Shown here piece after piece: positions 9,286 through 22,905 of a stretch of 64,000 bases of DNA. The position numbers were made by a program, and so were the translations under genes. This DNA comes from Oscillospiraceae bacterium (GTDB lineage Bacteria; Bacillota; Clostridia; Oscillospirales; Oscillospiraceae). The stretch covers positions 620,001-684,000 of the forward strand of contig AP025582.1 of the NCBI GenBank assembly GCA_022846075.1, read 5' to 3'. How positions within the stretch are numbered: the first letter of the stretch is position 1; each line of letters begins with the position of its first letter. The notes under the pieces were generated by a model that was not told the DNA's origin, made no database searches, and saw nothing but the letters and a program-made list of their open reading frames with translations.

Positions 9286-9936
9286 ATGAAATACCAAGCA
9301 ATCCTGTTCGATTTTGACTACACCCTGGGGGACGCCACGGCCTCCATCTACGAGGGCTTCTGCTACGCCTTTGAGAAAATGGGCTACCCCCGGCCCGACC
9401 GGGAGGCGGTGCGCCGCACGGTGGGCCATATGCTGGAGGACGAGTTCACCATGCTCACCGGGGTGGAGGACCCGGCCCAGCGCGCCGAGTTCCGCCGCTG
9501 GTTCCAGGAGAAGGTGGCCGACACCCAGGCGGAAAAGACCGACCTCCTCCCCGGGGCGGAGGAGCTGCTGGGGGCCCTCCACCAAAGGGGCGTCAAGCTG
9601 GGCATCGTCACCAGTAAACGCAACGACACCCTGCGGAAGATCCTCGCCCGTCACGGGGTGCTGGACCAGCTGGACTTCACCGTGGGCGGAGACCTGGTGG
9701 GCCTGCCCAAGCCCGACCCGGAGGGCCTCAACGCCGGCATCGCCGCCCTGGGGGTGGAAAAGGCGTATGTCCTCTACTGCGGCGACACCACCATCGACGC
9801 CGGCACCGCCCGGAACGCGGGGGTGGATTTTGCCGCCGTCCTGAACGGAACCACCCCGGCGGAGGACTTCGCGGGCTATCCCAGTGTCCACATCGCCCCC
9901 GACCTGCCGGAGCTGAAGAGCTGGCTGGGGGTCTGA
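9286..9936 (+). CDS. HAD-superfamily hydrolase, phosphoglycolate-phosphatase-like
   Basis: 216-aa cytoplasmic phosphatase of the HAD superfamily. Motif I is DFDYT with nucleophile Asp9 and Asp11, motif II IVTSKR, motif III Lys in GLPKPDP and motif IV the acidic pair region CGDTTIDAGTARNAG. The helical cap between motifs I and II is of subfamily-I type, as in Gph/PpaX/beta-phosphoglucomutase relatives. The substrate cannot be told from sequence. The methyltransferase gene follows after 23 nt and is probably cotranscribed. Confidence 0.85.
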   Translation: MKYQAILFDFDYTLGDATASIYEGFCYAFEKMGYPRPDREAVRRTVGHMLEDEFTMLTGVEDPAQRAEFRRWFQEKVADTQAEKTDLLPGAEELLGALHQRGVKLGIVTSKRNDTLRKILARHGVLDQLDFTVGGDLVGLPKPDPEGLNAGIAALGVEKAYVLYCGDTTIDAGTARNAGVDFAAVLNGTTPAEDFAGYPSVHIAPDLPELKSWLGV

Positions 9937-9959
9937 GCCGCCGGAGGGAGGGAGCGCAT

Positions 9960-18133: not shown

Positions 18134-18517
18134 CTATTCCTTCTCAAACCGCTCCCGGAAGCCCTCCATCTGCGCCTCGTCCTTCACCTCCAGGTCCCGC
18201 ACCCCCGCGCGGCCCTCCACGTGGTGGGTCAGCTCGTGGGCCAGGGTGGTGTGGAGCTCGTCGGCCCAGTCCTCCTCGCTCCACTCCTCCAGCTTGGCCA
18301 GGGCCGTGAAGGAGCCGTAGTAGATATTGATGTGATTGCCCAGCATGTCCCGGCAGTATTCCCCCATGAAATAGAGCTCGTCGTCGGGGAAGTCCGGGTC
18401 CTTCATCGCCTGGGGCTCCAAAATAATGCCGCCGTTGAGCCCCTCGAAGAATTCCGGCGGGAACTCCTCCGCCATCTCGTCCAGCAGCCTGCCCACCCGC
18501 TCAAAGGATAAGATCAT
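18134..18517 (-). CDS. metallopeptidase-family (zincin-like) protein
   Basis: 127-aa small soluble protein, start at 18517 behind GGAGGCG (minus strand). It contains a zincin motif HELTHH (His94-Glu95-His98) in HTTLAHELTHHVEG and a region YFMGEYCRDMLGNHINIYYGSF typical of the MMP-like family (formerly DUF1025). Extending the frame upstream adds a basic stretch with no ribosome site, so the short form is preferred. The substrate is unknown. It is convergent with phoR and divergent from uraA. Confidence 0.78.
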   Translation of the reverse strand: MILSFERVGRLLDEMAEEFPPEFFEGLNGGIILEPQAMKDPDFPDDELYFMGEYCRDMLGNHINIYYGSFTALAKLEEWSEEDWADELHTTLAHELTHHVEGRAGVRDLEVKDEAQMEGFRERFEKE

Positions 18518-18544
18518 AAAAAACGCCTCCTCAAGTTTTTCCTC

Positions 18545-18573
18545 TTGCAATCTGCCCCGGCTTTTTGTATAAT
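18545..18573 (+). promoter_or_regulatory. uraA promoter
   Basis: TTGCAA (18545-18550), 17-bp spacer, TATAAT (18568-18573). The transcript should begin near 18580 with a leader of about 155 nt holding a short ORF and an intrinsic terminator. Confidence 0.7.
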
Positions 18574-18606
18574 ATTCGACAATGGAGAGAAAAGGGGGAA
18601 GGGACC

Positions 18607-18687
18607 ATGGCGGAGCGGATGCGTTGGACGGCGGCTCGGCGGGGCCTTTCTTTTCTTTTTCCCTTTTGCGTGGCGTACCGGCAGTAA
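18607..18687 (+). CDS. putative 26-aa attenuator leader peptide of uraA
   Basis: ATG at 18607 behind a purine-rich ribosome site (GGGGGAAGGG), 26 codons, TAA at 18685-18687. Codons 14-20 (LSFLFPF) are encoded by an unbroken pyrimidine-rich tract (18645-18666), which in RNA is a U-rich pause-prone stretch. The stop codon falls in the loop of the terminator hairpin 18676-18695, so a ribosome following closely behind RNA polymerase would cover the left arm. This is the logic of the E. coli pyrBI and pyrE leaders, where low UTP pauses polymerase. Translation has not been shown; the peptide itself resembles nothing known. Confidence 0.55.
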   Translation: MAERMRWTAARRGLSFLFPFCVAYRQ

Positions 18688-18703
18688 TGCCGGTATTTTT
18701 TTT
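18676..18703 (+). terminator. attenuator terminator in the uraA leader
   Basis: TACCGGCA (18676-18683), loop GTAA, TGCCGGTA (18688-18695), T8 (18696-18703). The upstream neighbour is on the other strand, so this terminator can act only on the uraA leader transcript. Confidence 0.8.
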
Positions 18704-18735
18704 GCCCATGTGTGTGAGTTGAAAGGAGAATGACG

Positions 18736-20133
18736 ATGAACGAAACCACCAAGCGCACCGCCCCCATCCGGGACGCCCGGACCCTGGGGCTGCCCAAGAT
18801 GCTGATCCTGGGTCTCCAGCATATGTTCGCCATGTTCGGCGCCACCGTGCTGGTGCCCATCCTGGTCCAGGGCTACGGCCTGCCCCTGTCCATCCAGACC
18901 ACCCTCTTTTTCGCCGGGGTGGGGACCCTCTTTTTCCACGTGTGCACCAAGCTGAAGGTGCCCGCCTTCCTGGGCTCCTCCTTCGCCTTCCTGGGCGGCT
19001 TCTCCGCTATGGCGAACATGGATACGGGCCGGTACGCCGCCATGGCCGCGGGGGAAAAGCTCCAGTACGCCTGCGGCGGCATCGTGGTGGCGGGGCTCCT
19101 CTACGTGGCACTGGCCCTCATCATCAAGGCCGTAGGGGTCCATAAGGTCATGCATTTCCTGCCCCCGGTGGTCACAGGGCCCATCATCATCCTCATCGGC
19201 CTCAACCTGGCCCCCTCCGCCGTGTCCAACGCCTCCACCTGCTGGTGGCTGGCCCTGGTGTCCATCGCCGTCATCGTGGTGGCCAATATCTGGGGCAGGG
19301 GCATGATCAAGATCATCCCCATCCTTCTGGGTGTGGTGGTGCCCTATCTGGTGGCCCTCATCGCCAACGCCATGGGAGCCACCGCCCTGGACAGCCTGGG
19401 CAACGCGGTGCCCCTGCTGGACTTCTCCGGGGTGGCCGCCGCGGATCTGGTGGGCTTCCAGCCCTTCCTCACCAACTTCTCCGGCAGCGTGGCCAAGTTT
19501 GACCTCTCCGCCATCCTGGTCATGGCCCCCATCGCCGTGGCCTCCATGATGGAGCACATCGGCGACATGTCCGCCATCTCCGCCACCGTGGGGGAGAACT
19601 TCATTGAGGAGCCGGGCCTCCACCGCACCCTGGTGGGCGACGGCATCGCCACCGCCCTGGCCGGCCTCTTCGGCGGCCCCGCCAACACCACCTACGGTGA
19701 AAACACCGGTGTGCTGGTCCTCTCCGGGGTCCACGACCCCCGTGTGGTCCGTCTGGCCGCCCTCTACGCCGTGGTGCTGTCCTTCTCCCCGGCCTTTGCC
19801 GCCCTGGTGAGCTCCATCCCCTCCGCCATCATCGGCGGGGTGAGCTTCATCCTCTACGGCATGATCTCCGCCATCGGCGTGCGGAACGTGGTGGAGAACC
19901 AGGTGGACTTCACAAACTCCCGCAACCTCATCATCGCCGCCGTCATCCTGGTGTGCGGCCTGGGCTTCACCGGGGGGCTCACCTTCACCGTGGGCGGGGC
20001 CACCATCACCCTGACCAGCCTTGCCATCGCGGCCATCGCGGGCATCGCCCTCAACGCCGTCCTCCCCGGCAACGACTTCCACTTCGGCCAGAGCGCCAAC
20101 GCCGATACGGCGGCGTCCCTGGGCCGGTATTGA
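18736..20133 (+). CDS. uraA: NCS2-family uracil permease
   Basis: 465-aa nucleobase:cation symporter with about 14 membrane segments. The ATG at 18736 is spaced better from AAAGGAGA than the ATG at 18730. UraA-type features are LGLQHMFAMFGATVLVPIL at the N terminus, the substrate-site helices AVASMMEHIGDMSAIS and the motif NTTYGENTGVLVLSGVHDP. Xanthine permeases of the same superfamily differ at these sites, so uracil is the likely substrate. The gene sits behind a leader ORF and terminator, indicating control by attenuation, plausibly by pyrimidine supply. Confidence 0.85.
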   Translation: MNETTKRTAPIRDARTLGLPKMLILGLQHMFAMFGATVLVPILVQGYGLPLSIQTTLFFAGVGTLFFHVCTKLKVPAFLGSSFAFLGGFSAMANMDTGRYAAMAAGEKLQYACGGIVVAGLLYVALALIIKAVGVHKVMHFLPPVVTGPIIILIGLNLAPSAVSNASTCWWLALVSIAVIVVANIWGRGMIKIIPILLGVVVPYLVALIANAMGATALDSLGNAVPLLDFSGVAAADLVGFQPFLTNFSGSVAKFDLSAILVMAPIAVASMMEHIGDMSAISATVGENFIEEPGLHRTLVGDGIATALAGLFGGPANTTYGENTGVLVLSGVHDPRVVRLAALYAVVLSFSPAFAALVSSIPSAIIGGVSFILYGMISAIGVRNVVENQVDFTNSRNLIIAAVILVCGLGFTGGLTFTVGGATITLTSLAIAAIAGIALNAVLPGNDFHFGQSANADTAASLGRY

Positions 20134-21459: not shown

Positions 21460-22905
21460 CTATGCGTTTTGAACGGTAAATTCCAGCCGCAGCCCGACCT
21501 TTTGCCCCTCCGGGACCTCGATGAAGGCGCCGGGGGTGCCCTCGACGCCGGTAAACCGGGCCGTCTGGGTGACGCGCACGCCCCGGTAGATGAGGTCGTA
21601 GTTCCACTCTTCGCTGGGGAGCTGGGCCACCCACTCGTCCGGGTGGAAATTCAGGCAGTTCACCTGGGGCAGGGCTCCGGCATAGGACAGCAGGCCGATG
21701 GGCTGGGCAGAGCTGACGAAGGCCGCGGCCAGGAACCCGCCGGTGGAGAGCTCCAGCTCGTAGGTGAAGCCGGTGACCTCCCCGCCGGTGAGGATGGGGC
21801 TCCACCGCTTTACCTGGGCGGGGAACGGCTCAATGGCGATCGCGTTGCCCGGCAGCGCTTCCTCGGTGCCCTCCGCTGTCAGATGAACGGCGTTTTCATA
21901 GAGGTAATCCAAGTAGAAATTGTAGTTATCCGCAAATTGCTCCGGGGTCAGCGGCCCCCGGTGGGGCGGCAGCTGGCCCTGAAGGGTGATGACGAGCACC
22001 AGGGCCAGTAAGGCGCCATATGCCCCCGCAAAGGCGAAGCACCGCCAGGAGCTCTCCGGGATCTCCAGCCGTTCGGCCCGGCCGTCGTCGGCGCTCCAGG
22101 CCCAAGGGCTGCGCTCCCCGATGTTGCAGGCCTTCCAGCTTTTGTAGTAGCGCCACAGTCTGTAGAAGGGGAGGCCGTAGCCCATGCCCTGGGCGAAGAG
22201 GGTCCCCAGCCGCTTCCGGGCGGCGGCGGTGGAGAGCTTTTCGCCGTCCGCGTCCCGCAGGGTAATGCCGAAGACGAACTTCCCGGGGGTGGTGCCCCAA
22301 AAGTGGAGCAGGAGGGGTTCCAGCAAAAACATGAGGGCAAAGGCGAGATAGCTGTCGAAGAGCTGAAAGAAGAAGTTGGTGGTCAAATGGGGCGGAAAGC
22401 GGAGGATCAGGACCTCGGCCACGGTAAAGGGCAGGCTGTAAATGGCCAGATCCAGGGTCCGGGCGAAGAGCCTCCGCCAGGAGTGGCCCGGCAGGGGAGG
22501 GGCCTCGTCCTTCGGCGGGGCGAACCGCTCCGAGGCCGGGGCCTTTTCCAGCTCCCTGAGCCAGGGGGCGGCGTCCAGGGCGGCGTAGTCCGCCCCGGAG
22601 GAGCGAAGCTGGGCGCACACGTCCCGGGCCCGGTCCAGGGCCGCCTGGTCGGCCTCCAGCTGGCGCAGCTGCCGTTCCAGGGCGGCGGTGAGGGGGAGCT
22701 CTCCCCGCTGGAGGGAGCGGATGGTGTCCAGGTCCATATGGAGCTGCCGCAGGAGCTTGATCTTTTCCAAAGCTGCGGCGTCGGCCTCGCTGTAATCCCG
22801 GTAGCCGTTGGCTGCCCGGGCGGGGGAGAGCAGGCCCTCCTGCTCGTAAAAGCGGATGTTGGCCCGGGTCATCCCAACGGCCTGTTCCAGTTCTTTGATG
22901 GTCAT
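21460..22905 (-). CDS. membrane-anchored MerR-type regulator with RDD domain
   Basis: 481-aa fusion. Residues 1-70 are a MerR winged helix-turn-helix (TIKELEQAVGMTRANIRFYE, NGYRDYSEAD), followed by a coiled-coil dimerisation stretch to about 120. Residues about 143-280 are an RDD-type membrane domain (RRLFARTLDLAIYSLPF, LHFWGTTPGKFVFGI). Another transmembrane helix lies near 290-312 (AFAGAYGALLALVLVIT), and the last about 165 residues are predicted to be extracytoplasmic and match no family I recognise. This is a one-step sensor: an outside domain tied directly to a DNA-binding domain. Its promoter has the 19-bp spacer characteristic of MerR targets. Confidence 0.8.
   Translation of the reverse strand: MTIKELEQAVGMTRANIRFYEQEGLLSPARAANGYRDYSEADAAALEKIKLLRQLHMDLDTIRSLQRGELPLTAALERQLRQLEADQAALDRARDVCAQLRSSGADYAALDAAPWLRELEKAPASERFAPPKDEAPPLPGHSWRRLFARTLDLAIYSLPFTVAEVLILRFPPHLTTNFFFQLFDSYLAFALMFLLEPLLLHFWGTTPGKFVFGITLRDADGEKLSTAAARKRLGTLFAQGMGYGLPFYRLWRYYKSWKACNIGERSPWAWSADDGRAERLEIPESSWRCFAFAGAYGALLALVLVITLQGQLPPHRGPLTPEQFADNYNFYLDYLYENAVHLTAEGTEEALPGNAIAIEPFPAQVKRWSPILTGGEVTGFTYELELSTGGFLAAAFVSSAQPIGLLSYAGALPQVNCLNFHPDEWVAQLPSEEWNYDLIYRGVRVTQTARFTGVEGTPGAFIEVPEGQKVGLRLEFTVQNA

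Follow-up and report, generated by a model that had tools for sequence, protein, structure and literature searches.

A probable translation-coupled attenuator in the leader of a uracil permease gene of Oscillospiraceae

How might a member of the Bacillota adjust uracil uptake to its supply of pyrimidine nucleotides when PyrR, the usual solution in this phylum, is not found in its genus? The question is raised by a short leader that precedes a permease gene within a stretch of 64,000 nucleotides of Oscillospiraceae DNA (the window). The leader combines a promoter, a small open reading frame (ORF) containing a pyrimidine tract, and an intrinsic terminator, and it is probably a transcription attenuator that is coupled to translation in the manner of E. 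coli pyrBI and responds to nucleotides. Such a device is notable because the Bacillota have been classed, at the level of the phylum, as carrying out runaway transcription that is uncoupled from translation (PMC13323073, PMC10953045).

Anatomy of the leader and the gene behind it

All of the leader elements lie on the plus strand. The predicted σ70-type promoter (18545-18573) is composed of a -35 element, TTGCAA (18545-18550), and a -10 element, TATAAT (18568-18573), which are separated by a 17 nt spacer and match the consensus at 10 of 12 positions. It is the sole promoter-like site between 18000 and 20500, a region in which shuffled sequences would be expected to yield 0.5. The Shine-Dalgarno sequence GGGGGAAGGG, which can be read directly at 18594-18603, precedes a leader ORF of 26 codons plus TAA (18607-18687). 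This ORF begins with the ATG at 18607, ends with the TAA at 18685-18687, would encode the peptide MAERMRWTAARRGLSFLFPFCVAYRQ, and has a frame that is kept in relatives (discussed later). Within it is a purine-free tract of 23 nt (18645-18667), the putative pause region. An intrinsic terminator, recognized by its sequence, follows at 18675-18703; its arms, TACCGGC (18676-18682) and GCCGGTA (18689-18695), enclose the loop AGTAAT and lead into a run of eight T residues (18696-18703). The loop contains the TAA of the ORF, and the distance from the stop codon to the end of the U-run is 19 nt. A preliminary description of this DNA had listed the promoter, the 26-codon ORF, the tract, and the terminator with the stop codon in its loop, and all of them are indeed present at these positions.

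The downstream gene (18730-20133, plus strand) encodes a uraA-like NCS2 nucleobase permease. The protein scores over the cut-off of TIGR00801 and below that of the uracil-permease equivalog model, and it is assigned to uracil because of its neighbours in relatives, where pyrR and uraA are adjacent. Translation of the permease could start at ATG 18730 or at ATG 18736, the latter being better spaced from its AAAGGAG. Among 250 family genomes, 88 have a uraA match, 40 have a PyrR match, and 15 have both; the match coordinates place pyrR immediately ahead of uraA in 12 of the 15. Relatives of the permease at 70-72% identity are also present in faecal records titled 'Bacteriophage sp.' (MT835472.1, MT837892.1, and MT836315.1), which could represent bacterial DNA inside the records. 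Elsewhere in the window, at 21460-22905 on the minus strand, a single protein is a fusion of a MerR helix-turn-helix domain and an RDD membrane domain.

The background for this arrangement was taken from 99 kb of DNA of the same genome, read on both strands and made up of the window and two further stretches (L207 and L208). Of 212 terminator-like sites in this DNA, 9 have a loosely defined, Shine-Dalgarno-led short ORF that ends in the stem, and among these 9 the uraA leader alone has a C/T tract of at least 13 nt, the next longest tract being 12 nt. Judged against this sequence background, the joint occurrence of ORF, terminator, and tract is not a matter of chance.

Conservation of the reading frame and the tract

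The comparison with relatives is based on the sequences preceding 97 uraA orthologues from the genus and the family, the present one included. With G231 left out (its match begins at a contig end) and G114 having no usable upstream sequence, there are 96 leaders. A strict class, defined by a terminator, a Shine-Dalgarno-led ORF whose stop lies in the stem, and a C/T tract of at least 12 nt, contains 46 of them and is represented in 19 of 44 genera; 3 of the 46 are doubtful, their tracts lying more than 50 nt ahead of the stem. In 12 other leaders there is a terminator and an ORF without such a tract (4 of these leaders belong to genera that have strict leaders), 11 have only a terminator, and 27 have none. 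The tract, which the preliminary description had expected to be conserved, is therefore widespread without being universal.

Conservation of the frame, also part of that description, is borne out. In a fairer version of the frame test, the start codon is chosen by its Shine-Dalgarno match alone, and the position of the stop codon is scored afterwards. With starts chosen in this way, 47 of 53 leaders (22 genera, own included) have their frame 0 stop codon inside the terminator stem window, versus 5 and 6 of the 53 for the other two frames; 16 more terminator-bearing leaders had no start that passed the Shine-Dalgarno filter. When one leader is drawn per genus (22 genera), the mean is 19.0 in frame 0 versus 3.0 and 2.0. 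A set of 80 named genomes, which in part represent the same organisms, gives 12, 1, and 1 of 22, with 14 more leaders lacking a start. Grouped by record title, the strict class is found in 10 of 15 Oscillospiraceae-like cases, 1 of 40 from Lachnospiraceae or similar (a doubtful one), and 4 of 25 others. For other families of the order, 21 loci were sampled, 5 further matches lying outside the sample, and 2 of the 21 are cut by contig ends. Of the 19 evaluable loci, 6 look alike by eye, 4 of these having a tract of at least 12 nt; 3 loci pass the Shine-Dalgarno filter, and 2 of them are in frame 0. Within the genus, differences among 7 leaders at the three codon positions are 0.25, 0.21, and 0.37 before the tract, a modest lean toward the third position, and no such lean is seen within the tract.

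The finer anatomy was examined in 45 strict leaders, the strict case G011 having been dropped by a second parser. Their tracts average 61% U and 34% C, and the C+T content of the ORF rises from 47% in its first half to 72% in its second half. Leader peptides vary by genus, as judged by eye, with the C/T content being kept; therefore, it is the nucleotide content rather than the peptide that looks selected. The C-terminal ends of the peptides likewise appear dissimilar by eye, and no shared motif was seen. The tract starts a median of 42 nt after the AUG, and the median distance from the stop codon to the end of the U-run is 29 nt. A distance of about 30 nt is roughly the spacing expected when the ribosome touches the polymerase. 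The stop codon is in the loop in the window, as the preliminary description had it, but this detail does not hold for relatives, in which the stop is located mostly at the 5' edge of the stem and otherwise deeper in the stem. In the predicted ensemble, the terminator pairs with a probability of at least 0.8 in 43 of the 45 leaders. No antiterminator is predicted in 44 of the 45, the 5' arm of the terminator pairing upstream at a probability above 0.3 in only 1.

The sequences around the terminator have some additional regularities. GC[CG], often as TTTTTTTTGCCC, directly follows the U-run in 34 of 43 leaders that have a run of six or more T residues. Among background terminators it does so in 7 of 21, the uraA leader being one of the 7. 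In the window, the sequence in question is at 18696-18708, and E. coli pyrBI shares T8GCCC. In several leaders of the genus (L004-L015), ATGGGCAA right after the tract could pair around the terminator with TTGCCCAT after the U-run, and in G004 (TTGGG/CCCAA) and G012 (CGGGC/GCCCG) this pairing looks compensatory by eye.

Other pyrimidine genes of the relatives were searched for a similar leader. At pyrB, none of 14 loci from 11 genomes (L108-L118 and L120-L122) has a terminator together with a Shine-Dalgarno-led ORF. This sample includes L122, which scores under the pyrB cut-off, and leaves out L119, L123, and weaker matches; 5 of its loci (L108-L111 and L117) lie behind a pyrE-like coding region and so are uninformative on a leader. 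No uraA-like leader was seen at two paralogous permeases (L016 and L017) or at 15 upp loci. In two of the latter, a terminator-like site is present at a distance of over 160 nt upstream; one of the two also has an 11-codon frame beginning with TTG but lacks a tract. Of two pyrC operon starts inspected, that of G005 has a terminator but no ORF, and the terminator in G015 ends the preceding gene. The G005 pyrC leader (L204, about 9820-9950, minus strand) contains, by eye, a possible antiterminator (AATCTGC/GCAGATC) and gives no Rfam match at gathering score; on the opposite strand nearby is a sub-threshold match to the L10 leader. A blunt search of 16 genomes for a tract plus T7 detected the uraA leader in just two of them (G000 and G003), yielded fewer matches than the reversed control, and revealed no second gene that could be recognized by eye. 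Since the examined pyrB and upp loci have no such leader, the attenuator may be confined to uptake.

A proposed mechanism and its rivals

The proposed sequence of events resembles that of pyrBI. Transcription would begin just past the -10 box, and a ribosome would load on the putatively translated leader ORF. When UTP, and perhaps also CTP, is scarce, RNA polymerase would linger at the U/C tract, some 50 nt beyond the AUG, and so give the ribosome time to load and to close up. By the time polymerase is at the U-run, the ribosome would have reached the stop codon within the terminator stem; the hairpin would thereby be blocked and the uracil permease would be made. When pyrimidine nucleotides are plentiful, polymerase would pass the tract quickly, the ribosome would lag, the hairpin would form, and transcription would end. 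We infer that UTP is the signal because of the tract and the gene that is controlled; the dependence of the pause on nucleotides and the direction of the regulation are suggested by the arrangement of the leader. The preliminary description had favored this pyrBI-style reading, and it is supported by the conserved frame and by the finding of no competing PyrR or riboswitch.

Work with E. coli indicates how position and pausing matter for such a device. A terminator located a few bp behind a stop codon is repressed almost completely. One placed in the first 100 bp of a coding region is active, the ribosome lagging, unless pausing couples the two, and pausing is what couples the ribosome in the pyrBI leader (PMC4824070). 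Prevention of termination there needs tight coupling across pyrL (PMC5021804). Under the runaway transcription ascribed to the Bacillota, the device should fail unless polymerase pauses, and this counts against it. The 50 of 96 leaders outside the strict class, which include the 12 that have an ORF and no long tract, and the modest codon-position lean also count against it.

The most familiar alternative would be that PyrR or a metabolite-binding RNA acts on the terminator and that the ORF is incidental. PyrR control is what a Bacillota pyrimidine gene would usually have, and the 12 relatives with pyrR directly upstream of uraA fit this idea. However, this competitor, which the preliminary description had set against its own proposal, was not found. 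No Rfam family reaches its gathering threshold over the window. At E values up to 10, the region 18500-18760 gives eight matches, none of them PyrR; the best, rseX, scores 30 bits versus a gathering score of 50, and it and similar weak matches, being far under the gathering score, are taken as chance. With stricter filters and 50 candidates scored for each genome, none of the 16 genus genomes yields the PyrR RNA (RF00515), compared with 12 of the 60 genomes searched (stricter filters), 2 of which are above the family cut-off. A PyrR-level protein match is also found in 0 of the 16, of which 15 show only matches of 1e-7 to 3e-5; the query used was validated by its score over the NF003549 cut-off. 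At 20 uraA loci of the Lachnospiraceae type, no PyrR element is present at Rfam gathering score. Among the 46 strict leaders, 45 are without PyrR and 1 is with it, and among the 50 of 96 leaders outside the strict class, 37 have no detected PyrR and 13 have it, which gives a Fisher p of 0.0009 for related genomes that are not independent and without correction for phylogeny. At the level of genera, strict leaders are present in 19, PyrR in 9, and both in 2, one of the two by way of a doubtful leader (G259). Control by PyrR or a riboswitch also leaves the frame-specific position of the stop codon unexplained, and it appears extremely improbable. Very unlikely as well is amino acid attenuation or a Rho-loading function of the C/T tract. 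The codons of the tract read F, L, S, and P, so that Phe, Leu, Ser, or Pro might be sensed, but the antiterminator that this would employ is not predicted, and the codons vary by genus (by eye). As for Rho, pyrimidine-rich RNA serves as a target for it in B. subtilis (PMC13323073). Yet no genus genome (0 of 16) has Rho over the cut-off, the best match (9.6e-12) probably being an ATPase relative, and just 4 of 250 genomes of the family have a Rho match at an E value of 1e-60, none of these 4 belonging to the uraA genomes; as a control, the search found Rho in 8 of 14 named genomes, among them B. subtilis. The near absence of Rho, and its absence from leader-bearing genomes, speaks against a Rho utilization site, and this role of the tract was rejected.

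Two other explanations keep the translated leader and give the tract a different task. The tract might be mainly an anti-Shine-Dalgarno that pairs with the Shine-Dalgarno of its own leader once it is out of polymerase and shuts leader translation, so that it would serve as a timer of ribosome loading rather than as one side of a race; the signal would be pyrimidine nucleotides or general translation capacity. Such pairing is predicted at a probability of at least 0.5 in 38 of 45 leaders and amounts to -18.1 kcal/mol in the window leader. However, it is stronger than pairing with shuffled tracts in 27 of 43 leaders (p 0.11) and stronger than pairing with tracts swapped between genomes in 27 of 43 (p 0.07), the fold of the window leader has a z of -1.2, and E. 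coli pyrBI has the pairing as well (-10.6 kcal/mol). Since it is not clearly above these controls, the pairing may merely reflect a purine Shine-Dalgarno facing a pyrimidine tract; a selected helix was rejected on this ground, and the timer is an unlikely main function. TTNTTT is a pause motif, and the tract could be a NusG-dependent pause site, recognized as T-rich non-template strand, that synchronizes ribosome and polymerase independently of nucleotides and senses ribosome availability or an inhibitor, as at tlrB. The pause-like pattern TT.TTT is found in 33 of 45 leaders versus 24.5 in shuffles. At B. subtilis tlrB, a leader peptide does go together with pausing that depends on NusG and takes place at T-rich DNA (PMC6851288). 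Against this explanation, the excess of the motif is mild, the peptides share no C-terminal motif (by eye), and the gene controlled is a uracil permease and no resistance gene; all told, it seems quite improbable. Of all these readings, the pyrBI-like attenuator is the most probable.

Coupling, and comparison with known systems

Whether transcription and translation are coupled in this organism can be approached through its own genome. Purines make up 49.3% over 73 predicted genes, a small sample that is ambiguous between coupled and runaway transcription because loss of Rho itself relaxes purine bias, and the distance from stop codon to terminator stem has a median of 15 nt, again in a small sample (15 distances). 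As a tentative and somewhat doubtful extension, ribosome-polymerase coupling may be kept in the Oscillospirales as a whole or, failing that, in those members of this nearly Rho-less family that are without PyrR, with PyrR replaced by a ribosome-based sensor of pyrimidine nucleotides in which the tract is both pause site and anti-Shine-Dalgarno timer. If so, the retained coupling would be an exception within a phylum classed as runaway. If the pyrBI-like reading is correct, a UTP-sensing coupled attenuator would have arisen, or been kept, outside the Proteobacteria, in gut Clostridia. The leader would then offer a natural, sequence-defined test of coupling in the Bacillota, an instance of PyrR replacement in a large gut family, and a tie between uracil uptake and nucleotide level that needs no regulator protein.

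Measured in the identical way, the E. coli pyrBI leader (pyrL) has a Shine-Dalgarno-led ORF, an intrinsic terminator within that ORF, and T8 followed by GCCC; its tract, CCGTTTTTCTTCCC, lies 57 nt beyond the AUG and 17 nt ahead of the stem. The peptides resemble each other (GLSFLFPF in the uraA leader, GLPFFFPL in pyrL), a likeness that may stem from the tract alone. There are also differences. The uraA leader controls uptake whereas pyrBI encodes aspartate transcarbamylase, and the phyla differ. The uraA leader ORF is shorter and stops inside the terminator, whereas pyrL reads through the terminator, as does the G008 leader. The inferred transcript start of uraA, CAATGG, is without the repeated T of UTP-slippage starts, and the family of the uraA leader is nearly Rho-less. 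Attenuation by PyrR (RF00515) is similar in that pyr genes, and the pyrR-uraA unit of relatives, answer to the supply of pyrimidines. It is, however, a protein-RNA switch, and in the genus both its protein and its RNA were searched for without success.

Leader-peptide attenuators have been reported from the Firmicutes, and the preliminary description therefore went a little too far in calling such a mechanism not expected in this phylum. At B. subtilis tlrB (yxjB), a Bacillota leader peptide and a polymerase pause control a terminator (PMC6851288); there, a drug-stalled ribosome and a hairpin that sequesters the Shine-Dalgarno are used, whereas the uraA leader serves a pyrimidine transport gene and shows no arrest motif by eye. 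Among the matches listed in a search of open-access literature, in which subscription journals are mostly outside, no title or opening of an abstract describes such an element in Clostridia. Ribosome-mediated attenuation has been predicted for Firmicutes hisZ and hisS in a 2010 survey, where these leader peptides are presented as new outside the Proteobacteria and Actinobacteria, ermC apart (PMC2965389). What stands of the preliminary claim is the signal: the hisZ/hisS leaders sense histidine through codon runs (PMC2965389) and tlrB answers a drug (PMC6851288), unlike the uraA leader, which would answer nucleotides.
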